Virus record (IMG/VR): IMGVR_UViG_3300025889_012432 | Coordinates: 1 to 35,214 of that record | Strand: one strand, 5' to 3' | Source: a virus | Length of the DNA stretch: 35,214 nucleotides | In this document: positions 18,041 to 35,195 of the stretch, piece by piece | Layout of the letters: each line of letters begins with the position of its first letter | How positions within the stretch are numbered: the stretch's first letter is position 1 | Notes under the pieces: generated by a model | Databases searched by the model: none | Told to the model about the DNA's origin: nothing | The model's input: the letters and a program-made list of their open reading frames with translations, nothing else | Made by a program: the position numbers and the translations under genes

Positions 18041-18850
18041 TTAACTCTCCCTAAACACTTTGTGTATATCTCTTAATAGATTTTTACCTTCATTACGCTT
18101 ACGCTGGAACACGTTGCGTCCTACAATCATACCGTAGCCACCATTCTTTGCAATCGCTTCTGCTTCCATTAGGATTGCTTCAGTGCCACGCTTGGTACCA
18201 CCAGAAAAGACCACAGGAATACCACATGCTGATTTAACAACACGATCTACCCGAATACAGAGTGTAGACATATTATCATACTCAGGAAGCTTAACCTTGA
18301 TCACGTCTGGTTCCAACTGCGCAGCAATGTATGCTGCATGCATTGTAGTCTCAAACGAGATAGGATTGAATTCACCGCCACGTGGATACGACCAGAGAAT
18401 GGTCTTGGCAGTCGGTGAGGCATGGGTTTTAATCTTACCAAAGTAATTGATCATTTCGTCTTGATCAAGCGATCCAGGATAAATTGTGTATCCAATGCCA
18501 CCCATTCCTTGAGCTGCAGCTGTAGTTGCATAGACTGCTTGAGTCGGATCAAGCCAGTCGTTCAGATTGTTACCATGATTTAGTTTCATAATGATATCCT
18601 GTGCTAAATGCGGATACCAAAACTTCAATAGGTTAGCAGTACGCTGCGGCAGTGCTGCAGCCCCTACTAAACCTTCTTCCAACAACTCAGCGATATAGTC
18701 AACCTGGTAATCCACATCCAACATCTCAGGATGATCTGTGGCATAGAACGCAGAATGTGGTCCGTGTTCTACTCCTTGATCAATAGGAAGGATGATGGTG
18801 TAGTTATCTTTTTTACCGAAATCTGGTTCACATAAACGCTTGTGTTTCAT
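18041..18850 (-). CDS. Class I fructose-bisphosphate aldolase, DhnA/FbaB type
   Basis: A 269-residue TIM-barrel aldolase of the DhnA family. Diagnostic segments are ILPIDQGVEHGP at about 20-31, TILWSYPRGGEF at 150-161, PDVIKVKLPE at 181-190 with candidate Schiff-base lysines K185/K187, IPVVFSGGTKRG at 211-222 for phosphate binding, and GYGMIVGRNVFQR near the end. The usual reaction splits fructose 1,6-bisphosphate into two triose phosphates. The family also includes LsrF and the archaeal aminodideoxy-heptulosonate synthase, so the substrate is not certain. The length matches short archaeal-type enzymes better than E. coli FbaB (350). ATG 18850 was chosen because AGAGG lies six bases before it, while the longer frame starts with TTG. 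Its position among early genes suggests metabolic support of infection. Confidence 0.85.
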   Translation of the reverse strand: MKHKRLCEPDFGKKDNYTIILPIDQGVEHGPHSAFYATDHPEMLDVDYQVDYIAELLEEGLVGAAALPQRTANLLKFWYPHLAQDIIMKLNHGNNLNDWLDPTQAVYATTAAAQGMGGIGYTIYPGSLDQDEMINYFGKIKTHASPTAKTILWSYPRGGEFNPISFETTMHAAYIAAQLEPDVIKVKLPEYDNMSTLCIRVDRVVKSACGIPVVFSGGTKRGTEAILMEAEAIAKNGGYGMIVGRNVFQRKRNEGKNLLRDIHKVFRES

Positions 18851-19019
18851 TCTCAACCTCTAATTGTTTAATACGATGTTGGCAATATTCAATCAGCTCT
18901 TGTAATTCTTTAGGGTCTTCATGCCGCAGGATAATCTCCATAGCCTGTACAAACCCTACGGTCTGTTTGGCTTCATGGATTGCGGATAGTGTTTTTGTAA
19001 TAGATTGCTTATTCAGCAT
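18828..19019 (-). CDS. Small helical protein, unknown
   Basis: A 63-residue protein, MLNKQSITKTLSAIHEAKQT at the start and a helical charged C-terminal half (LQELIEYCQHRIKQLEVENE). It has no signal or membrane segment, and I do not recognise it. Its start overlaps the end of the lysozyme-like gene by 11 bases, and its end overlaps the aldolase start by 23 bases, so it is embedded in a tightly packed operon and is probably translated. The overlap contains the ribosome binding site of the aldolase, which may couple the two. Confidence 0.55.
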   Translation of the reverse strand: MLNKQSITKTLSAIHEAKQTVGFVQAMEIILRHEDPKELQELIEYCQHRIKQLEVENETQAFM

Positions 19020-21564: not shown

Positions 21565-22210
21565 TACGAATTAGTCCTCTGATATGTTCTTTACCTTTAA
21601 ACCCTGTCCAATGCATAATCTTCTTACGAGAAGAATCCTGACCATCTAATAGCTGGATTCTTAACCAGTTGTAGATATTGGGTAGATCTTCAATATATAT
21701 TCGCTTCTTTAAAGGATCATCACGCAGCATCATATGTAGTACTTCCTGATCACCTACTGTAGGATTGGCATCGATGTTGCGTTTCCATTCTTTTAGAATT
21801 CTAGGACAGCCTTCAAATAAAACAATACCAGAGTTATGCCAAATTTCTCCACGACGTTTAGTCCACGGAAGATCTTGCACCATGCCCAGCTTGTTCTCTA
21901 CAGAGTAATTAAAAACAGTAGAGATGGAACGAAGCACGTGACAGTCGGTATCGATCCAGCAAACTTTCTTGGCTAACTTAGATGCGTCGATCATAGATTG
22001 AGGTTTAAGAAACCATGCTTTATCCTTATGCGAATTTAACTTAATTACTTTTGCAAAGTTCTTCTCTGCATAATCCCTAGCCTTAGCGCTAACTCCAAAG
22101 TCAGCAAAGATTACGGGTGTATTGTTATGCTTAGAGTACTCGGTGAACCACCATTCCAGCATCCATTCTGTGTTTTCATCACATCCAGTCAGGAAAGCTT
22201 TATCGAACAT
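21557..22210 (-). CDS. GT-A fold glycosyltransferase
   Basis: A 217-residue putative glycosyltransferase. VCWIDTDCHVL at about 83-93 has the D87-x-D89 metal-binding motif of GT-A enzymes, and IWHNSGIVLFEGCPRIL at about 122-138 resembles the acceptor-side segment of GT8/GT32-like proteins. No signal or membrane segment is present, so it should act in the cytoplasm on nucleotide sugars. The acceptor could be host lipopolysaccharide precursors, a phage protein or phage DNA. It overlaps both neighbours (8 and 11 bases), showing one tightly coupled operon with the GT25 proteins upstream. Confidence 0.65.
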   Translation of the reverse strand: MFDKAFLTGCDENTEWMLEWWFTEYSKHNNTPVIFADFGVSAKARDYAEKNFAKVIKLNSHKDKAWFLKPQSMIDASKLAKKVCWIDTDCHVLRSISTVFNYSVENKLGMVQDLPWTKRRGEIWHNSGIVLFEGCPRILKEWKRNIDANPTVGDQEVLHMMLRDDPLKKRIYIEDLPNIYNWLRIQLLDGQDSSRKKIMHWTGFKGKEHIRGLIRNG

Positions 22211-22850
22211 TTAGGATATCCATCTTTCCAGTTTTAAGGTATGAAAACTTTGCCTGAATACCTTCTTCTCTTTGGATAGTGGTAAAGGTATCTCTTGCTT
22301 GAATAGGCCACGGATAAAACTCTGTAATCTCAAAGTCGTCTTGGTGAATATAAACGTCAGTGGGCTTTGCTTTAATCTTTGCTCGATGAATTAAATCCCA
22401 TGCGCCTTTGGGTGTAATGTAGTATCCGTGTGCACCAGGAAGAAACGGCTTAGAGCAGAGTGGCCCTTCACCAAGTTTACCTGGTGTCTCAACCCTACCA
22501 TATGAAGGTTCTCCAAGATTTACAATATCACCTCGGAGGAATGTTGGAATGTCACCAACGAATACCGCATCATGTTCTAGGATAAGATAGTTTTGCTGGG
22601 TTTGATAGCTTTCTTTCCAGAGGGAATAGTGTGACGAGAAAGCAGCCAATGCATTCTTAAATCTTGAATACTTTTCTTTGAAGAATCTTGTATCAATCTG
22701 TTCATCATACACAAATTGATCTACGGTCTTTGGAGTGACAGCATTAAAGTTCTGAACGTGTACACCATATCCAGCGCCAGAATCAATACATCTCTGCGCA
22801 GCCTTGACGGACTGTGGCATGTTCATCAAGGTAATCACTTTGGCAATCAT
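22200..22850 (-). CDS. GT25-type glycosyltransferase (LPS biosynthesis-like)
   Basis: A 216-residue protein with the GT25 layout: AKVITLMNMPQSVKAAQRCI at the start, FSSHYSLWKESYQ near 71-83, YLILEHDAVFVG at 88-99 with the E92-H-D94 motif, and PGAHGYYITPKGAWDLIHRA at about 138-157. GT25 enzymes transfer galactose or glucose in lipopolysaccharide outer core synthesis. It is one of three GT25-like proteins in a row (22200-24332) that probably arose by duplication. It may modify host surface sugars to change receptors, or build a glycan for the phage itself. Confidence 0.75.
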   Translation of the reverse strand: MIAKVITLMNMPQSVKAAQRCIDSGAGYGVHVQNFNAVTPKTVDQFVYDEQIDTRFFKEKYSRFKNALAAFSSHYSLWKESYQTQQNYLILEHDAVFVGDIPTFLRGDIVNLGEPSYGRVETPGKLGEGPLCSKPFLPGAHGYYITPKGAWDLIHRAKIKAKPTDVYIHQDDFEITEFYPWPIQARDTFTTIQREEGIQAKFSYLKTGKMDILNVR

Positions 22851-22853
22851 AAT

Positions 22854-23543
22854 CTAACCTGTCGTTGTTGATCTTCTCTGTTCTACCTTAGTTATATATG
22901 GGTAGTATGACTTGAGATTTCCAGGAAACAGCTGCTTGCAGAGCAGAGCATCGTTTGGCCAGATACCAATACTTGATTGAAGCTTCGAGGCTTTCTTTGC
23001 AGCCGCTGGTGTAATCACATATGCACTGTTACCAGCAAGACCGTCTGGAACGTTCTCATCTGGAGTATTTACACCTTCTACTACATGCACACCAAAGTCG
23101 TTCTTGATAATATTCTCATGATAGACCATGCCACGACGGGTAGCACCTCGAGGATCATTAATCATGAGAACGTCACCATCATCGATAGACTTAAGAATCT
23201 TGCTAGGTCTAAACTTACGAATAAAAACTGCATCATGCTCTAAGATCATAATTGGTTCGTCTAATTGTACACATTTATTCCAGAGATTCATATGTGACAA
23301 AGAACAAGCAATCTTTTTACCAATGTCTTTTGCTTTATATCCAATCAGAGTCATGCCTTCATAAACACTAGTCTCGCCTTCAACTGGATAGGAGTAAGTA
23401 GTGTCTTTAATCTTATCAGGCGTGACAGCACGGACCATTTCAATATGAAGGTCATCATTCATCTGTCTGGCAGTCTTGAGAGTGTTCTCAGCAGACTGTA
23501 CACTGTACTTGTCATTAAATAATGTAATTACAAAGGCTTTCAT
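22854..23543 (-). CDS. GT25-type glycosyltransferase (LPS biosynthesis-like)
   Basis: A 229-residue protein of the same type as its neighbours. It starts MKAFVITLFNDKYSVQSAEN and has CSLSHMNLWNKCVQLDEPIM, ILEHDAVFIRKF with E102-H-D104, and GLAGNSAYVITPAAAKKASK at about 167-186. The C-terminal part IGIWPNDALLCKQLFPGNLK carries the usual late aspartate. Composition is near the window average, unlike the A+T-rich genes just upstream. The stop is four bases from the next gene. Substrate is unknown. Confidence 0.75.
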   Translation of the reverse strand: MKAFVITLFNDKYSVQSAENTLKTARQMNDDLHIEMVRAVTPDKIKDTTYSYPVEGETSVYEGMTLIGYKAKDIGKKIACSLSHMNLWNKCVQLDEPIMILEHDAVFIRKFRPSKILKSIDDGDVLMINDPRGATRRGMVYHENIIKNDFGVHVVEGVNTPDENVPDGLAGNSAYVITPAAAKKASKLQSSIGIWPNDALLCKQLFPGNLKSYYPYITKVEQRRSTTTG

Positions 23544-23674: not shown

Positions 23675-24332
23675 GACTAGTGTTTAAGTTTGAATGTTTG
23701 AATGTAAAATATTCTGGAATTGTATATTGCATTTTTACATTTTTTGTATTAATAAAAAAGTCACTTTGTTCCCATCCATTTTTGTGTAATGAGTCTAATA
23801 ACTTTTTTGCTCCTTTAGGAGTAATAGCATATGCTGCTGTTCCCGGAATCATTAAGCTCCCTTTAAAGAGATTGTCTTTGTTATATATTAAAGGTGAATA
23901 AGAGTATTCATTTATACCAAAATCAAAATCAGGCTTATTACGAACATGACTAAAAACTTTCTGTTTAAATGCAGAAGATGCATTCATAATCAATACATCT
24001 TTCCATGTTGGATTGTCCCAGTTTCTAACACAATAACTATCATGCTCAATAAATGCTACAGGTTCATTTAACTCTAAACATTTTTTCCACACTTTAACAT
24101 GATTAAGAAAGCATGACATCTTTGTCTCATAAACTTTTTTACTTTCTCGTTTAAAGTTGGTAACTCTACCATTAGGCACTTCTGGATAATGCTCATAGTC
24201 ATATAAAGTTTTGGGTGTAACACCTTCTAACATTTCAACATCAAACCCACTAGAACTAGAACTTCTGTAACAGTCATTAGCTTGTTTTTCTGAAACAGAG
24301 TGACCTTTTAAGTAAACTATAAATGATTTCAT
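23661..24332 (-). CDS. GT25-type glycosyltransferase
   Basis: A 223-residue protein, third of the GT25-like group. It has MKSFIVYLKGHSVSEKQAND at the start, FLNHVKVWKKCLELNEPVAF, IEHDSYCVRNW with E96-H-D98, and MIPGTAAYAITPKGAKKLLD at about 157-176. The usual EDDA motif is replaced by EHD, as in the two neighbours. The DNA is clearly richer in A+T than that of the two downstream paralogues, so it may have come in from another source. It overlaps the next gene upstream by four bases. Confidence 0.7.
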   Translation of the reverse strand: MKSFIVYLKGHSVSEKQANDCYRSSSSSGFDVEMLEGVTPKTLYDYEHYPEVPNGRVTNFKRESKKVYETKMSCFLNHVKVWKKCLELNEPVAFIEHDSYCVRNWDNPTWKDVLIMNASSAFKQKVFSHVRNKPDFDFGINEYSYSPLIYNKDNLFKGSLMIPGTAAYAITPKGAKKLLDSLHKNGWEQSDFFINTKNVKMQYTIPEYFTFKHSNLNTSHGVG

Positions 24333-25042
24333 TTAAATTTTCCATCCTTAGCAAGCAATACTCCACCAAAGTAATTTGTGTGATGATCGTCATAAGGTTT
24401 ACTTAATATTTGATACCATCCAGCTTCAGCAGGTAATAATTCTTTCTTTTTATGTAAATAGAATACATAATCAGTATTAAAGTGTTTTGGTCTATGGAAT
24501 ATTAAAGGGTCTCTCATCATACCATTCCATCTAATGTTATCTGTAGTCTTCTTCAACATTTCAGGAGAATTTAAATATTTAATAGATTCATTATCCATTT
24601 TTCCACTTCTCCATCCAAACCCATACGGACCTTCTTCATAAGATTTTTCTAGATACAAATTATAGTCCAATTTGTCTGAGAAGTATAAATCATATCTACA
24701 TTTAATAATCATATCATACTTTTTTCGCAGACTTTTAACCAAAAAAGCATGAGCTAATATTTGTTTTGTGGAGTTATATAATTTAGAACTGGATTTGTGT
24801 AATCTTTTATGATCCAGCCATGGACCAGCATTAGATTTTGTATCTGCTACACAATCATACCCAATATCAGGTTCATCTAAAACTAATACTTTGTTGTTAT
24901 TAATTAAAGTATTTTTATTCCATGTTTGATAATAATAATCAACATTTATATTTTTAAATGCACTAAACATTCCATTTTCTAATACAGAATAATCAATATC
25001 AGTTTTGCGTTGCAATCCACTAATACAAAAAGCAATCTTCAT
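24329..25042 (-). CDS. Putative glycosyltransferase-like protein, paralogue of 26775-27470
   Basis: A 237-residue protein without firm family assignment. It begins MKIAFCISGLQRKTDIDY and has YDMIIKCRYDLYFSDKLDY at about 109-127, where R116-x-D118 resembles the metal-binding 'R-x-D' segment of WavE-like and related transferases. The C-terminal block HRPKHFNTDYVFYLHKKKEL and LPAEAGWYQILSKPYDDHH matches the protein encoded at 26775-27470 almost position by position. The DNA is very rich in A+T (14 G/C of 60 in the line at 24661). It probably acts on sugar precursors in the cytoplasm. The exact reaction is unknown. Confidence 0.6.
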   Translation of the reverse strand: MKIAFCISGLQRKTDIDYSVLENGMFSAFKNINVDYYYQTWNKNTLINNNKVLVLDEPDIGYDCVADTKSNAGPWLDHKRLHKSSSKLYNSTKQILAHAFLVKSLRKKYDMIIKCRYDLYFSDKLDYNLYLEKSYEEGPYGFGWRSGKMDNESIKYLNSPEMLKKTTDNIRWNGMMRDPLIFHRPKHFNTDYVFYLHKKKELLPAEAGWYQILSKPYDDHHTNYFGGVLLAKDGKFK

Positions 25043-25602
25043 TATTTATTTACCTGATATAATGTTGCGCCCTTGCCAGTACTATCTTTGATTATAGCGT
25101 TTAAACCTACTTCTTTAAATAATTCAAGCAATTCTTCAATAGAAATTTCTAACGGATCAATTGCCCTAGATCGGTTATTTACTTCACTGTGTGCATGTTC
25201 AACAAACATAATACCATTATCAGACAACTGATTTTTCCATGTATTTAAACATTTGATTGGATCATACGAGTGGTCAAATGAATTAGTGTACAAGATGTCA
25301 AATTTACTAATCCACTCATCTTTAACTTCATGGAAATCATGCTGAACAGTCATCGGAAAGTTTTTAGCAGTATGTGATATTTCTGTTCCAACAATATTTG
25401 CATTTGAGTAATATTTTTTAAAAAACTTTTGCTCTGCGGCATTACGAGTACCATGACATAATATAGATGTGGCAAATGGAACCCAAGAATGTATCTTAGC
25501 AATGGTAGATTCTTCAACCCATTTAAGGTTAATTTTTTTTACATTAGCCCGAGTTTGTGCTTCTACATACTCTTCATAATTTTTGTATTTCCAAATTTTC
25601 AT
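25042..25602 (-). CDS. Class I SAM-dependent methyltransferase
   Basis: A 186-residue protein with the class I methyltransferase order. Motif I is SILCHGTRNAAEQKFFKK at about 46-63, the acidic end of the second strand is IVGTEISHTAKNF, motif IV-like is FDILYTNSFDHSYDP, and NGIMFVEHAHSEVNNRSRAI follows. Proteins of this sort in polysaccharide loci methylate sugars or related groups. A small-molecule or glycan substrate fits the neighbours better than DNA, but this is inference. It overlaps the next methyltransferase gene by four bases and shares its A+T-rich composition. Confidence 0.65.
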   Translation of the reverse strand: MKIWKYKNYEEYVEAQTRANVKKINLKWVEESTIAKIHSWVPFATSILCHGTRNAAEQKFFKKYYSNANIVGTEISHTAKNFPMTVQHDFHEVKDEWISKFDILYTNSFDHSYDPIKCLNTWKNQLSDNGIMFVEHAHSEVNNRSRAIDPLEISIEELLELFKEVGLNAIIKDSTGKGATLYQVNK

Positions 25603-26189
25603 CTTGATATCGTAATTACCTTATATGTCCCCGAAACTTTTGTGTCAATTGACTGTGACTTAATTACTTTAAATCCTGCTTCACTAATAACATTCATAAA
25701 AATATTTTCATTTTGCACATAAATTTTATTTTGTTCTAATACTGGGTCTTTGTCCCAACATCTTAGAGTTAATATACAATACTTTTTAGTAGCAGTCAAT
25801 ACATTATTAAGAATAGATAATGAATCATCCTGTGGAAATAAGTTTAACATGCGAATAATCAAAGAAAGGTCAGCCTTCTTTTTAATTGGAGTTTTAAGCA
25901 AATTCCATTTTTTTACATTTAATTTAGATGAAATTTTCTTTTTTGCTTGTGCAATCATATCATCAGAATACTCATACCCATAAACAACATTAATGTGGTC
26001 AGCACGTTCAAAAGCATCACTAAACCGATTAGTACCAAGCGGCGCATCAATAATAGTCTCAATATCACTATTATTCATAATAAAATTTTCAACGATACGT
26101 TGCTCAAACTGCCACTTTTTATTAGTAGATCGACTGTCGTAGTTATTCGCATTCAATCCAGAGTAATGTTTTTCAATTAAACTTTCCAT
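25599..26189 (-). CDS. Class I SAM-dependent methyltransferase
   Basis: A 196-residue protein. The N-terminus HYSGLNANNYDSRSTNKKWQ is a typical lead-in helix. Motif I is TIIDAPLGTNRFSDAFERAD at about 45-64, in place of the common 'DxGxGxG', with the acidic strand end VVYGYEYSDDM and a later ADLSLIIRMLNLFPQDDSL. The proline/leucine form of motif I is somewhat unusual. It would methylate a sugar or lipid precursor in the glycan pathway. It overlaps its neighbours on both sides. Confidence 0.65.
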   Translation of the reverse strand: MESLIEKHYSGLNANNYDSRSTNKKWQFEQRIVENFIMNNSDIETIIDAPLGTNRFSDAFERADHINVVYGYEYSDDMIAQAKKKISSKLNVKKWNLLKTPIKKKADLSLIIRMLNLFPQDDSLSILNNVLTATKKYCILTLRCWDKDPVLEQNKIYVQNENIFMNVISEAGFKVIKSQSIDTKVSGTYKVITISR

Positions 26190-26785
26190 GATTTTCTAAC
26201 TTTCCAATATTTTTGTACTACGTCACTATCTATACCAAACACTAGCGATGGGTCTGTTAAGAACTTGGCATTAATAACATTCATGAACCAAGCATTATTG
26301 CATGCTAAAAATTCATTATCAATAACCTTAATACCATTCTCAGTCATAATGATGTTGTCTATCGTTAAATCATTATGGTTAATATGATTAGGTAGTAATA
26401 GAGGTGTAAAAGGTAAACTAACTCTTTTGTGTATATGCTCAAGGTAATCCCATGTACACTTGTTATAGTCAATTGAACGTAGAGTCAGAATCAGCTTACC
26501 GACTTCTTTTTGTATTACGTTCACATCACAATTACGTGCATGTGTGCCTTCAATAAACTCTTCTGCAATCAATAGACCATCCGAGTTAATTACTTTAGGA
26601 AAGTAATGAGACACCTGATCATGTTGATCAATATAAAGACGTAAGTCAACTTGCGCCTGATTAAATGTCTCATATACTTTAACCTTCTGACCATCGTATT
26701 CAGCAAAGACCGACAAGAGGTTATTTTTATTTGTGTGTTTTGCCCTTCCTTTGGTTGATTGTATATTTTTCAATCTATCTAACAA
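26177..26785 (-). CDS. Aminoglycoside phosphotransferase/choline kinase-like protein
   Basis: A protein of about 202 residues with the small-molecule kinase C-lobe. LPNHINHNDLTIDNIIM holds the catalytic H-x-D-x-x-x-x-N motif, and KVIDNEFLACNNAWF holds the metal-binding aspartate. The N-lobe is short (VFAEYDGQKVKVYETFNQAQ). The family transfers the phosphate of ATP to a hydroxyl group of choline, sugars or drugs. The start is uncertain: TTG 26785 has GGGGA ten bases before it and an 11-base overlap with the gene upstream, whereas ATG 26824 or GTG 26833 would add residues that look like a shadow of that gene. Next to a nucleotidyltransferase, it could phosphorylate a headgroup or sugar for activation. 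Confidence 0.6.
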   Translation of the reverse strand: MLDRLKNIQSTKGRAKHTNKNNLLSVFAEYDGQKVKVYETFNQAQVDLRLYIDQHDQVSHYFPKVINSDGLLIAEEFIEGTHARNCDVNVIQKEVGKLILTLRSIDYNKCTWDYLEHIHKRVSLPFTPLLLPNHINHNDLTIDNIIMTENGIKVIDNEFLACNNAWFMNVINAKFLTDPSLVFGIDSDVVQKYWKVRKSWKV

Positions 26786-27470
26786 TTGAACATATTCCCC
26801 AAAAAGAACTATGAATATCACCATACGGCTCACTCATTACTTGATACCATCCCCATTCTACGGGAAGAAGATTTTTTTGTGCATGTAAATCAAATACAAA
26901 ATTAGGATCAAAATGTTTGGGGCTGTGCATAATTAATTGATCTGGCAAGTATCCATACCAATCAGCATTGGGGTCATCTTTCGGGACATCATAAACTTTA
27001 TTAATTTCATGCCCTTTAGCGGGTCGTATCATAAAACCAACTGGACCCTTATTTTTTGCTATTTCTAAATATTTACTATAATCTGTATTTGCAATTTCGA
27101 CATCAAATCGTGTTCGAATTATAATATCATAATCATTAGGTATTTTAGATATTAAATCAGCATATCCTAATATTTGTTTTGACCCATGCTGGGTTTTATT
27201 GTGAAATATATTTTTCTCCCTATATCTTTCAAACTTACCATGTTTACATGGATAATTTGTATCAGACACTGGATGATAAGTCATTTTGGGTTCTTTGCAA
27301 TAAAACAATTTTTCTTGATATTTTTTAGGTATTCTATCAACATCAGATTCCCAAGTATGATAATAAAAATCTGCTGTTGGGAATATTTCACGTCTTTTTT
27401 GATCTAAAATATCTGGATGAATATTTATTTTATCTCTATAGATACCATTAACACACACTGCAATTTTCAT
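26775..27470 (-). CDS. Putative glycosyltransferase-like protein, paralogue of 24329-25042
   Basis: A 231-residue protein starting MKIAVCVNGIYRDKINIHPD. YDIIIRTRFDVEIANTDYSK at about 114-133 has the R-T-R-F-D segment (R119, D123) common in this group. The C-terminal block HSPKHFDPNFVFDLHAQKNL and LPVEWGWYQVMSEPYGDIHS is shared with the paralogue at 24329-25042. A charged loop in the middle contains DTNYPCKHGKF. It probably belongs to a glycosyltransferase-like family, but I cannot name the reaction. It overlaps the nucleotidyltransferase gene by four bases and is A+T-rich. Confidence 0.6.
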   Translation of the reverse strand: MKIAVCVNGIYRDKINIHPDILDQKRREIFPTADFYYHTWESDVDRIPKKYQEKLFYCKEPKMTYHPVSDTNYPCKHGKFERYREKNIFHNKTQHGSKQILGYADLISKIPNDYDIIIRTRFDVEIANTDYSKYLEIAKNKGPVGFMIRPAKGHEINKVYDVPKDDPNADWYGYLPDQLIMHSPKHFDPNFVFDLHAQKNLLPVEWGWYQVMSEPYGDIHSSFWGICSIVR

Positions 27471-28183
27471 AAACTAGGAATCCTGTTCCACCACTCAGTC
27501 TTCTTTAAAGCCTCCAGTTCTTCTGGTGTTCCCATACCTAAAAACTTCTCAACTCGATATTCTCTGACATTGCCCTCAAGGTAATTATATACAGGCGCAA
27601 GATAGAATTCACCATTTGTACGGTCATTAGCATCAAACATTCTTTGTGCAGCTTCAGCAAACTTTTTCTCGCTTGCAAAATGATAAACACCTACAGTAGC
27701 AATATTTGAAATCATTTTCTTTTCTGCTAATTCAGTAATATACCCACTATTATCTACAGTTACATAACTATGAATTGGTTTATCATGATCAGGTATAAAT
27801 GTAAGAATGGTGCCTTCAGTATTATCCTGCTCAAAGAAGTCAGATTTATTCCATGACATTAACTGGTCACAGTTTGCAACTAAGAACCCATCATCACTCT
27901 CTGTGTCAATTGCCTCTAGTACAGTACAAGCAGCTCCTTCAGTAATGGCATCTAATACATGCACAGTAGCACTAGGAGAAGCATCTTTGATTAACCTATC
28001 AATAGCATACTTGTCAATATGTTCACGGCGAACAATGACATGGATGTCTGTTCCATATCCAATGTTTTCTAACACTCTGACAAACATAGGTTTACCTTGA
28101 ATGTCAATTAGTGGTTTAGGTAGTTTATATCCAGCATCAATAAATCGCTGACCGTTGCCAGCCATAGGTAAAATAATTTTCAT
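27467..28183 (-). CDS. Sugar-phosphate (or headgroup) nucleotidyltransferase
   Basis: A 238-residue nucleotidyltransferase with the family signature at the start: IILPMAGNGQRFIDAG and KLPKPLIDIQGKPM at about 3-33, where G-x-G-x-R and K-P bind the nucleotide. FLVANCDQLMSWN around 99-111 carries the metal-binding aspartate. YKLPKPLI and NGEFYLAPVYNYL are typical of capsule-type and GlmU/RmlA-like enzymes. It makes NDP-activated sugars or, in LicC-like cases, CDP-headgroups, from a phosphate and an NTP. The adjoining kinase-like and dehydrogenase-like genes support a local activation pathway. Its start abuts the stop of the RuBisCO-like gene. Confidence 0.8.
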   Translation of the reverse strand: MKIILPMAGNGQRFIDAGYKLPKPLIDIQGKPMFVRVLENIGYGTDIHVIVRREHIDKYAIDRLIKDASPSATVHVLDAITEGAACTVLEAIDTESDDGFLVANCDQLMSWNKSDFFEQDNTEGTILTFIPDHDKPIHSYVTVDNSGYITELAEKKMISNIATVGVYHFASEKKFAEAAQRMFDANDRTNGEFYLAPVYNYLEGNVREYRVEKFLGMGTPEELEALKKTEWWNRIPSL

Positions 28184-29238
28184 TAGTCTAAACTCTTTCT
28201 CATTTCATACACTTTATCGTAGATATTCTCACCAGTGTGCAACCAACCACCAATATTTGCCATCCAATCATTACCAATATTTCCACGAATCTCTCTAGCA
28301 ACATCTGGATTCATTCCACAACTAAGAGCAGCAACTCTATCATTATTCATACAGATAGAAAGTGCTTCCATCGTCTCTTCTTCAGATTCTCCTTCTGGAT
28401 AATATCCACCAAGCATACCAACATGTATAGTATCAATACCAGCCATAACACCAAGTTTAACTAGAACTGGCCATGAGATAGAAAATTTATTGCCGGGATC
28501 AGTGAGAATACGAATACCAGACCTTTGATAGTGTGTGATAAGTCCTGCCTGATTACTTGCTGTATATGCACCTAGACCTGACCAAAAATTGATATGCACA
28601 CAATCGCCACCAAGACTTCTAACATCTTCCAAGTTTTGAACTAATTCGTATGGATCAGCATTAACACAGTACGAATACACAACTTTGCTATTTTTCTTTT
28701 CAATAAGAGAACTGACTGCCTGTACTCTTTGAGTCAAAGGTAAATAATCATTGTTAGCCATAATCTCATCTTCTTTGATGAAATCACTGCCGCCATCAAT
28801 CATTTGCTCTACAATAGAAAGAAGTTGTTGTTCTGTAAGACCAGACTTAGGTTTAACAATAGAACCGAAAAGTGGACGATTCTCTGCGCCTACACGTTCT
28901 TTAAATGCTTTCATTCCAAGAACAGGAGCATTCATATAAGGTAAACCTTCAATGTCAATTACACGACAACGTTCTACAATTTCAATATCAGATTGTCCAC
29001 CTTGAATAATACAAAGCAACTGAGAAATGTTTGGCCATGTAAATGCTTTGAGTGGGTAATCAATCTTTACGATATTACCTTCAATAGACTTTACGATAGC
29101 TTCCATTTCTTTGACATTAGCAGAAGTTTCAATTTCTGATCTAATATTTGGATTGCCGATACTTTGCCCGATTGCAATATTATGAGCGGCTGATGGAATA
29201 TCTTTGCTATGAACATGATATGTTACCGTATAATACAT
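28183..29238 (-). CDS. RuBisCO-like protein (form IV type)
   Basis: A 351-residue protein of the RuBisCO large-subunit superfamily. The N-terminal domain (1-115) has NIAIGQSIGN, and the barrel starts with RPLFGSIVKPKSGLT (K129 and K131 at the places of catalytic lysines 175 and 177). SDFIKEDE at 151-158 keeps the carbamylated lysine and metal ligands (K155, D157, E158). IHVGMLGGYYPEGE keeps the H327 equivalent (H272), but the loop-6 lysine K334 is Y279, and the HRAMHA motif is replaced by TDPGNKF, so true carboxylase activity is very unlikely. Known RuBisCO-like proteins are enolases, isomerases or apionate-pathway enzymes acting on sugar acids or sugar phosphates. It sits between a nucleotidyltransferase and a GDPD-like gene, which suggests a role in making an unusual sugar. 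Confidence 0.85.
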   Translation of the reverse strand: MYYTVTYHVHSKDIPSAAHNIAIGQSIGNPNIRSEIETSANVKEMEAIVKSIEGNIVKIDYPLKAFTWPNISQLLCIIQGGQSDIEIVERCRVIDIEGLPYMNAPVLGMKAFKERVGAENRPLFGSIVKPKSGLTEQQLLSIVEQMIDGGSDFIKEDEIMANNDYLPLTQRVQAVSSLIEKKNSKVVYSYCVNADPYELVQNLEDVRSLGGDCVHINFWSGLGAYTASNQAGLITHYQRSGIRILTDPGNKFSISWPVLVKLGVMAGIDTIHVGMLGGYYPEGESEEETMEALSICMNNDRVAALSCGMNPDVAREIRGNIGNDWMANIGGWLHTGENIYDKVYEMRKSLD

Positions 29239-29689: not shown

Positions 29690-30466
29690 TTAAATCTGCT
29701 CCATCAACTGCTCTACATTCTCACCACGTTCTGGTAGCAAGTCTTTCAAAAAGAAGTGAACAAAGTGGCATTCACTAATTTTCTTATTAGCACTATATAG
29801 ACCATTCCATTTCCAGTTCATATGCTTCACAGGAACCTTACGGGATTTCATAAAGTAATTTAACAGCGTTTGATCAGTAGACCATTTCCATGCACCGAGC
29901 CCATCAATAAAAGGTTGAAACTCTATCTGATCCAACCATTCTTTAGCTGGCATTTTTACATAGTCATAAAAAGACTGATTCATTAGCATCAGCCCCATAT
30001 TATAAAATTCATATCCAAATTTATTGGGTTTAAAGTCCAAACCTTTTTTACCATGAATACCATGATATTGCATTCGAGAGTAATTCAAAATCTTTGCAAT
30101 ATACTGTTTGTTGATTGGCATCTCACGTTCACAAACTGCGCCAAACGGATGATCAGTTCCAAAGTCATCAAAGATATTTGGAGCATCTGGTCGAATATAA
30201 ATGTCAGAATCAATCACAGCAATCTGATCATACTCTGGAAGAAGATCAAAAGCATTTTCTTTTTCAAAGATAGGCAGATAACCCAACCTTGAAGCACCTT
30301 CACTACGATTAGATGTAAATGGATTAGGATTAATTCGCAGCTTTGGTTTATCTAAAACATAATGTTCGATACCATGTTTAGCACAATATTCTGCAACAGA
30401 TTGAATACAGTGTTTATAAAGATTAGATGGTTTACCTACAGAAACCTGATAGATGAGTCGTTTCAC
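29690..30466 (-). CDS. GT-A fold glycosyltransferase
   Basis: A 258-residue protein with QIAVIDSDIYIRPDAPNIFD at about 81-100, where D86-S-D88 is the DxD motif that holds the metal and nucleotide sugar. GYEFYNMGLMLMNQSFYDYV and WKWSTDQTLLNYFMKSRKVP resemble the acceptor and catalytic parts of GT8-like enzymes. No membrane segment is seen. It overlaps the dehydrogenase gene by four bases, which suggests that it uses the sugar made by the neighbouring enzymes. Confidence 0.7.
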   Translation of the reverse strand: MKRLIYQVSVGKPSNLYKHCIQSVAEYCAKHGIEHYVLDKPKLRINPNPFTSNRSEGASRLGYLPIFEKENAFDLLPEYDQIAVIDSDIYIRPDAPNIFDDFGTDHPFGAVCEREMPINKQYIAKILNYSRMQYHGIHGKKGLDFKPNKFGYEFYNMGLMLMNQSFYDYVKMPAKEWLDQIEFQPFIDGLGAWKWSTDQTLLNYFMKSRKVPVKHMNWKWNGLYSANKKISECHFVHFFLKDLLPERGENVEQLMEQI

Positions 30467-33866: not shown

Positions 33867-34092
33867 TAATAGTATTGTCCTTGCCAGAAGCCTTCTTTAC
33901 TCTTTTAAGTACGTCCTGCCAGCCTTCACCAGCAAGTCTTTGTGTAGAGATTCTCCCACTAACTGTGGCAGGCATTTTCAAGACTTGGACATATTCTTTA
34001 TTTTCTTTTAGAAAGCTTAGTAGCTCATCATAAGGACAGTTAAGATCATACGCTTCTTCTGTCTCTTTATTTTTCACAGTATAGACTGGCAT
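33859..34092 (-). CDS. Small conserved phage protein (FmdB-like without zinc cysteines)
   Basis: A 77-residue protein. [20 protein letters not shown] resembles the start of small FmdB-like regulatory proteins, but the zinc cysteine pairs are absent, since one cysteine remains. The end EGWQDVLKRVKKASGKDNTI with a terminal TINV is recalled from similar small proteins of T4-like marine phages. The function is unknown. It lies between GMP reductase and PhoH with short overlaps. The FmdB comparison is tentative. Confidence 0.55.
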   Translation of the reverse strand: MPVYTVKNKETEEAYDLNCPYDELLSFLKENKEYVQVLKMPATVSGRISTQRLAGEGWQDVLKRVKKASGKDNTINV

Positions 34093-35195
34093 TACTTTTC
34101 ATACACCTTATTATATTGGTTATTGACTCGAATGAATGTAGCACACTTGGTTAAATCTTTAATCTGCTTTGCACCAACATACGTACATGTAGAACGTAGT
34201 CCACCTAGTATATATTGAATCGTATGACTTACCTCACCTTTATAAGGCACTAGGATATCACGACCCTCTGATGCACGATAGTCCTTCAGTCCGCCTGCAT
34301 GCTTCTTATTAGCAGTATTGGATGACATACCATAGAACTGACGAAACTCTTTGCGTTCAATAACAGGCTTGTAAATTTCGTCTTCCTTCATGTAGTAGTA
34401 TTCATTGTTGTGGATATATTTGTGTACCGGTTCGCCACCACCTTCATCATGACCTGCCAGCATACCACCGAGCATCACAAAGTCTGCACCTGCTGCGAAT
34501 GCCTTGGCTACATCTCCCGGAGAAGTGCAACCCCCGTCAGCAACAACATGACCGCCAAGCCCATGAGCGGCATCAGCGCACTCGATAACCGTCGATAGTT
34601 GCGGATACCCAACACCAGTAACAATGCGAGTAGTACAAACAGATCCAGGACCAATGCCCACTTTAACCACGTCAGCTCCATTTAGAATCAACTCCTGTGT
34701 CTGATCAGCAGTAACCACGTTACCTGCAATGATAATGTTATTGACCCCACAAAGCTCACGGATAGACTTTACAAACTGGACATATTTCTCCATGTAGCCA
34801 TTGGGTGTATCGATACAAATAATTGGAAATTTATCTTTGAGTACTTTGACTTTATCATAATCTGCTTCCTGCATACCGATAGTCAAGCAGAGACTTTCTT
34901 TCATACGAGAATCGTTCATATCAGCGTATCTATGAACTTCCAACAAATCTTCATTGGAATATGATTTGTTGAGTGCTACAAGCATATCGTCTTCTGCCAG
35001 TACCTTGAGCATCTCAAAAGTACCGACGCCATCCATATTAGCTGCGATAATAGGATTGACTTCGATCTTACGTTTAGAATGAGGGAATGCAAATGTTCGA
35101 GTGAGCTTTACCTCCTTTCTAGACGTTAATGTTGAACGCTTAGGACGAAGGAGGACGTCCGAGTAATCTAGTTTGGTATCACTCTCTATGTGCAT
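34092..35195 (-). CDS. guaC: GMP reductase
   Basis: A 367-residue enzyme of the IMP dehydrogenase/GMP reductase family, close to GuaC in size (E. coli 347). [20 protein letters not shown] at the start, [15 protein letters not shown], then the catalytic loop [20 protein letters not shown] with C187, and [20 protein letters not shown] and [11 protein letters not shown] for phosphate binding. GMP reductase converts GMP to IMP with NADPH, so it returns guanine nucleotides to the common purine pool. In a phage this should rebalance nucleotides for its DNA. IMP dehydrogenase is less likely, because no CBS domains are present and the GuaC-type sequence is retained. GAGGT precedes the ATG, and the rest of the operon lies upstream of the window end. 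Confidence 0.88.

Follow-up and report, generated by a model that had tools for sequence, protein, structure and literature searches.

The Locus

The window analyzed here is a viral DNA stretch of 35,214 nucleotides (IMG/VR record IMGVR_UViG_3300025889_012432, positions 1 to 35,214). Its central feature is an open reading frame of 351 codons that encodes a RuBisCO-like protein (RLP) and has a good ribosome-binding site, AAGGA, upstream of its ATG. The gene is a member of a dense minus-strand run in which adjacent genes abut or overlap by a few bases (Table 1); the RLP stop codon is overlapped by one base by a nucleotidyltransferase gene, and a gene for a mini-GDPD-like protein lies directly upstream.

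The setting is that of a T4-like phage, as the first-pass annotation had proposed. Baseplate, tail-tube and ssDNA-binding families are recognized by PHROG matches, and the closest isolate as judged by the tail tube, the Kyanoviridae phage C48C1, is syntenic with the window. The neighbors named in that annotation are borne out for the nucleotidyltransferase, the GDPD-like and the UDP-glucose-dehydrogenase-like proteins, while the evidence for a kinase is weak; glycosyltransferases and methyltransferases can be added to them. The unassigned DxD protein has a paralogue at 24329-25042 and belongs to a family (cluster c5) that follows the nucleotidyltransferase in many loci. The dehydrogenase-like protein is without the C-terminal UDP-binding domain, and a related dehydrogenase from another phage clade (L043, 13027-14172) likewise has no match to that domain. 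Elsewhere in the window, the aldolase gene encodes a metabolic function unusual among T4-like phages, the IMP dehydrogenase/GMP reductase-family gene lies at the window edge near PhoH, and the glycine-rich protein is a candidate receptor-binding tip.

Table 1. Genes and residues discussed in the text
Feature	Position	Strand	Evidence or remark
RuBisCO-like protein (RLP), 351 aa	28183..29238	-	Pfam, AlphaFold2 model, alignment
RLP landmark residues			K129/K131, K155-D157-E158, Q238, R239, H272, Y279, S306-C307-G308, G330-G331
Nucleotidyltransferase (NTP_transferase / sugar-1-phosphate type), 238 aa	27467..28183	-	PF00483 1.4e-8; phrog_3980 1.2e-48
Mini-GDPD-like protein, 149 aa	29240..29689	-	phrog_34507 8e-33
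GT8-like glycosyltransferase (weak)	29690..30466	-	PF01501 0.0046, below cut-off; same family in 37 loci
UDP-glucose-dehydrogenase-like, 260 aa	30463..31245	-	PF00984 2.7e-21, PF03721 4.4e-11; phrog_9148 8.2e-40
Unassigned family, DxD glycosyltransferase-like by eye	26775..27470	-	no Pfam match
Kinase-like (APH/thiamine-kinase type, weak)	26177..26833	-	NCBIfam ycfN_thiK 8.7e-4, partial
Two methyltransferase-like proteins	25042-25602, 25599-26189	-	PF13847 1.2e-4, PF13649 1.2e-4, below cut-off
Glycosyltransferases, family 25 type	22200-22850, 22854-23543	-	PF01755 1.9e-9 and 7.1e-14
DeoC/LacD-family aldolase	18041-18856	-	PF01791 2e-22
IMP dehydrogenase/GMP reductase-family protein	34092-35195	-	PF00478 4e-72; phrog_9582
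Glycine-rich protein, 680 aa	15574-17616	-	weak match to T4-type adhesin Gp38 (0.0042)

RuBisCO Fold and Selection

The RLP matches RuBisCO_large (PF00016, E 8.8e-25) and RuBisCO_large_N (PF02788, 3.8e-5), both above the gathering score. These two domains, together with the K201-x-D203-E204 triad, place it in the RuBisCO superfamily. Its sequence matches in the PDB are RuBisCOs (best 8vgs, 7.9e-24) and also the RLP 3nwr (3.5e-20). An AlphaFold2 model built from an input of 29 family members has a mean pLDDT of 91.2 and a pTM of 0.90; it superposes over its full length on solved RuBisCOs and RLPs, with a TM of 0.89 to 2d69 and a Z of 39.1 to 8u66 (2.4 A over 347 residues). The protein is thus predicted to adopt the full RuBisCO fold, an N-terminal domain followed by the catalytic barrel. 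Strong purifying selection acts on the gene, as evidenced by pairwise dN/dS values against seven relatives of 0.05-0.15 (0.09 for the closest pair), with dS near saturation in most of the pairs used.

Active-Site Residues

Residues were counted in a 72-protein alignment in which 34 rows belong to the RLP family, and RuBisCO numbering is used for reference positions. The two lysines of the KPK barrel strand, K129 and K131 at the Lys175 and Lys177 positions, are Lys in all 34 family rows, and the metal triad K155/D157/E158, homologous to K201/D203/E204, is equally invariant, both as the first-pass annotation had it. Lys at position 177 is absent from every other RLP group sampled, where Val, Cys, Gln, Ala, Ser or Asn is found. 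The loop-6 lysine, previously noted as missing, is indeed replaced: the Lys334 position is occupied by Y279 in the window and by Tyr in 34/34 rows. Between forms, loop 6 varies by one residue, so that K334 could pair with either of two adjacent columns; neither column has Lys in the family sequences displayed.

The account of the remaining catalytic residues needs revision. One active-site histidine had been described as kept, and H236 is present, but it aligns gap-free with RuBisCO His292 in both the profile alignment to solved structures and the multiple alignment; the His294 position is Q238, and Gln in 34/34 rows. The arginine of the HRAMHA motif had been described as lost. The window protein has R239 at the Arg295 position (Lys in 22, Arg in 8 and Ser in 4 of the 34 family rows), and what is lost from that motif is His294 and His298.

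In the N-terminal domain the window protein carries G24, N29, N31 and G81 in place of E60, T65, W66 and N123. Three substitutions hold across the whole family (34/34): Asn for Thr65, Gly for Asn123 and Cys (C307) for Gly380. Ser at 379 and Gly at 381 and 403 are kept in all rows, and Gly at 404 in 33/34. The combination of N29, G81, K131, Q238, Y279 and C307 is therefore a signature, present in 34/34 family members and in no other group sampled.

Clade and Class Assignment

Two maximum-likelihood trees (LG+C20, 75 and 72 rows, read as unrooted) were computed from the family together with forms I-III, MtnW, MtnW-like, OiaX-like and alphaproteobacterial RLPs, a set without known IV-Photo or IV-GOS sequences. 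A branch with support of 100/100 separates all RLP family members, which group together in every bootstrap tree (100%), from forms I, II and III, MtnW, MtnW-like and OiaX-like proteins and a further alphaproteobacterial RLP group. With neither Lys334 nor His294, and with a position outside the form I-III clade, the protein does not belong to the true RuBisCOs, and its NCBIfam scores are far under the RuBisCO cut-offs. It likewise scores 55 bits with the MtnW model TIGR03332 (cut-off 513.6) and 98.5 bits with the OiaX model NF042437 (cut-off 700).

These results agree with the first-pass claim that the protein is not a carboxylase, and the superfamily tree proposed there separates it not only from the carboxylases but also from MtnW and the OiaX-type RLPs. 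Its description as form IV-like stands in the broad sense, since a RuBisCO homologue without the carboxylation residues is an RLP; it falls, however, outside the characterized RLP groups sampled. We predict a non-carboxylating RuBisCO-like enzyme. On sequence criteria its family belongs to the RuBisCO superfamily and to the broad-sense RLPs, yet lies outside MtnW, OiaX and true RuBisCO.

Distribution in Viruses and Cells

When IMG/VR was scanned with the family alignment, at least 340 contigs that encode relatives of the RLP were identified; an earlier scan with the window protein as query identified 166. A parallel scan with a form I/III RuBisCO alignment, whose motifs do not cover form II, yielded no confirmed contig; the family and form I/III scans both rest on two short motifs. 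Since relatives occur in at least 340 viral contigs and dN/dS is about 0.05-0.15, the open reading frame is not a chance one. The family is not found among cultured phages: tblastn with two members against 50,697 records gave no RLP match, and megablast of the whole cassette against phages gave no match. PHROGs contains no family matching the RLP, and BFVD no viral protein with a RuBisCO fold (best TM by query length 0.44).

Cellular relatives are rare, at about 20 contigs among 84,980 species. The carriers include Legionella, Azospirillum, Elusimicrobia, Patescibacteria, DPANN archaea, Verrucomicrobiia and SAR11 single cells. In Legionella, three species have the RLP in the genome scan and a whole-genome search adds a fourth of 22; in SAR11, it occurs in 2/197 Pelagibacteraceae genomes. 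With 89 and 26 bits, two candidates from the genome scan (L105 and L106) score far below complete members of the family, all of which reach 312 or more, and they were left out of the count. Relatives on plasmids are MtnW and OiaX-type RLPs, with less than 35% identity among the matches listed, and some of these served as outgroups. One contig of 142 kb (L082, JAAXIF010000028.1), assigned to a Sphingobacteriales MAG, was excluded from the cellular evidence: its neighbors are those seen in the phages, and it probably derives from a phage.

The Nucleotidyltransferase Partner and Associated Genes

Gene neighborhoods were surveyed in 81 loci, 80 viral ones and the window. The nucleotidyltransferase is the sole near-universal neighbor of the RLP, present in 75/81 loci; counted by HMM, it occurs in 74/80 loci and within 2.5 kb of the RLP in 73/80. 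Six loci are without it, among them three that end at or near the RLP (L030, L036 and L054) and one that starts 1.1 kb upstream of it (L042). The reciprocal search, starting from the nucleotidyltransferase in 29 viral loci, recovers the RLP in 26/29, a small cupin in 26/29 and a GDPD-like gene in 21/29. Among loci from the genome collections, 21/23 have a nucleotidyltransferase match, and the other two are short contigs. The enzyme itself resembles HddC/4evw and other sugar-1-phosphate enzymes, and scores above cut-off with no NCBIfam model.

Pairwise distances of the RLP and of the nucleotidyltransferase across 58 loci are correlated with r = 0.82, a value in part due to shared descent of whole cassettes; 0/2000 permutations were as high, and r = 0.63 is obtained for pairs less than 65% identical. 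The viral loci are not independent: a large number are almost identical to one another, and phage cassettes move as units.

All four genes, the RLP, nucleotidyltransferase, cupin and GDPD-like gene, occur together in Azospirillum (L089), Elusimicrobia (L094), Patescibacteria (L093, with the nucleotidyltransferase on the opposite strand), Crocinitomicaceae (L087) and an alphaproteobacterium (L086). The cupin and GDPD-like genes are nevertheless not essential to the arrangement, because one or the other is absent near the RLP in Legionella and in many marine phages. In Legionella the RLP-nucleotidyltransferase pair adjoins a LicD gene (PF04991, 1e-42) among seemingly ordinary chromosomal genes. 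The wider surroundings of RLP loci hold glycosyltransferases, epimerases, methyltransferases and WavE. In a SAR11 single-cell contig (L101, 396-5618), an open frame of 1,741 aa with a nucleotidyltransferase-like stretch and no Pfam match lies ahead of the RLP and cupin genes.

The mini-GDPD-like protein recurs in phages, SAR11, Azospirillum and cyanophages. The motifs HR, ExD, GHD, HxK and CxD are invariant in its alignment, and a profile of the family aligns with solved GDPDs over their N-terminal part (E 4.4e-6). The catalytic motifs of GDPD are thus present, but 149 aa is much less than a whole GDPD barrel requires; the model (pLDDT 94.4) gave no significant match in a fold search of solved structures.

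Proposed Function and Alternatives

To our knowledge, the RLPs characterized so far are MtnW, methylthioribulose-phosphate isomerase and the isoapionate-pathway enzymes, and known RLP functions are salvage or catabolic. The mechanism of a known RLP cannot be carried over unchanged to the present family, because His294 and the residues at the N123, T65 and W66 positions are lost. The first-pass suggestion that the RLP makes an unusual sugar unit gains weight, since the RLP is recurrently paired with one nucleotidyltransferase in phages, bacteria and archaea. We therefore consider it rather probable, reasoning from sequence, that the RLP is a Mg-dependent, non-carboxylating enzyme acting on a phosphorylated sugar, the product of which is activated by the nucleotidyltransferase for glycan synthesis.

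In such a pathway, K155 would be carbamylated and, with D157 and E158, would bind Mg2+; the substrate would be a phosphorylated sugar or sugar acid whose carbonyl or hydroxyketone the metal polarizes. The phosphate may be gripped by the backbone-glycine site (G308, G330 and G331) and S306. A proton moved by K129/K131 or by the carbamate would then lead to isomerization, enolization or beta-decarboxylation; no CO2 would be added, because Lys334 is missing. Next, the nucleotidyltransferase would use an NTP to activate this product. Glycosyltransferases, or perhaps LicD in the case of Legionella, would attach the activated unit, which would probably be methylated first, to a host-surface or virion glycan. 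Gene linkage speaks for a shared pathway and not for the order of reactions, and the substrate of the nucleotidyltransferase could come from elsewhere.

The broadest reading, to which we give even odds, is that in a few bacteria, DPANN archaea and hundreds of phages a new clade of the RuBisCO superfamily and a dedicated nucleotidyltransferase, often joined by the cupin and mini-GDPD, supply surface glycans with a novel monosaccharide in nucleotide-activated form, and that this clade accounts for many viral "rbcL" annotations. The phage module probably came from bacterial surface-polysaccharide loci, and the family probably helps build an unusual surface sugar in this marine T4-like phage and in other viruses.

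The activated unit might instead be a phospho-alcohol and not a sugar, with the nucleotidyltransferase forming CDP-X, a LicD-type enzyme transferring phospho-X and the GDPD-like protein cleaving phosphodiesters. The LicD gene beside the Legionella pair and the GDPD-like gene in many loci point this way, but LicD/Stealth motifs occur in Legionella only and in none of the phage loci tested, where ordinary sugar glycosyltransferases predominate, and we regard this reading as unlikely.

It is more doubtful still that the RLP is an OiaX-type enzyme (3-oxo-isoapionate-4-phosphate decarboxylase) or another RLP of sugar-acid catabolism supplying the carbon metabolism of phage or host. OiaX-type proteins are 27-28% identical to the window RLP, among the highest values of the RLPs sampled, and OiaX (NF042437) and 3nwr share with it the fold, the metal triad and Gly at the N123 position. 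OiaX and its relatives nonetheless keep Lys334, His294 and Arg295, lack Lys177 (Ala in OiaX) and form a different clade. In addition, the annotated plasmid RLP loci examined have a four-carbon acid sugar kinase beside the RLP, and none was recognized here.

A role in methionine salvage, as an MtnW-like diketo-methylthiopentyl-phosphate enolase or a 5-methylthioribulose-1-phosphate isomerase, is highly improbable. MtnW (PDB 2oem and 2zvi) resembles the window RLP in fold (Z about 38), metal triad, K175, S379 and phosphate-binding glycines, and the profile match to MtnW models is weak. MtnW has Val, Lys, His and Ser at the 177, 123, 294 and 334 positions, however, where the window RLP has Lys, Gly, Gln and Tyr. 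The N123 position is Gly in 34/34 family rows as opposed to Lys in 4/4 MtnW sequences, a lysine that we take to be the general base, Lys98. MtnW also differs in clade and in gene context: no other salvage gene was recognized in the RLP loci, where the neighbors are sugar-nucleotide and glycan genes.

That the gene encodes a true, CO2-fixing RuBisCO, that is, a carbon-fixation auxiliary metabolic gene of the kind reported for viral rbcL (PMC8506154, PMC12615777), can for practical purposes be dismissed: form III enzymes (2d69, 8dht) are its best sequence and fold matches and share K175, K177 and the metal triad, but they keep K334, H294, R295, N123 and T65 and are about 23-27% identical to the window RLP, which has Tyr and Gln (34/34) for Lys334 and His294, replacements at E60, T65 and N123, a place outside forms I-III and NCBIfam scores far below cut-off, and no phosphoribulokinase or Calvin-cycle gene was recognized in the window or among the annotated recurrent neighbors.

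Implications for Viral rbcL

The preferred reading, that of an RLP supplying a sugar for nucleotide activation, bears on how viral "rbcL" genes are counted. Such genes have been reported as carbon-fixation genes (PMC8506154, PMC12615777, PMC13390420), and measured carboxylase activity is reported for the rbcL1 of PMC12615777. As at least 340 IMG/VR contigs encode the predicted non-carboxylating family and no form I/III contig was confirmed, some of the carbon-fixation counts may be wrong. Viral "rbcL" counts may include this family, which does not belong in tallies of viral carbon fixation. In the accessible portion of PMC12607003, the RbcL of a landfill phage clusters with "RbcL-like" proteins and is listed under carbon fixation, and no analysis of the active site or gene neighbors of viral RbcL is found there; compared by that description, it is virally encoded, like the window RLP.

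The GOS survey (Yooseph 2007, PMC1821046) described RuBisCO homologues outside all known forms, with active-site variation that includes N123. As described in the accessible part of that paper, they resemble the present family in being marine, outside known forms and variable at N123, and they may include it; for these homologues, neither a viral origin nor genomic neighbors were found described there. The Chlorobium-type IV-Photo RLP of C. tepidum (1ykw) shows fold similarity to the window protein. Our literature search found no description of a cassette of RLP, nucleotidyltransferase and cupin. If the proposed function is correct, the RuBisCO fold would have an anabolic use in building glycans, and the superfamily a new functional direction. 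The RLP-nucleotidyltransferase pair offers a small testable unit for enzyme discovery.

Related Cyanophage Loci

Phage glycan loci of two cyanophages, S-CAM9 and B23, contain a nucleotidyltransferase about 38% identical to that of the window and a GDPD-like gene. Unlike the window, these loci have no RLP and no cupin, and an extra HAD-like domain is fused to the nucleotidyltransferase instead. The fused genes (L302, 7341-8723 in S-CAM9; L303, 6329-7711 in B23) carry the additional N-terminal domain in frame, and it is HAD-like by eye in B23. Their annotations in cyanophages vary among phosphatase, HAD hydrolase and glucose-1-phosphate thymidylyltransferase.
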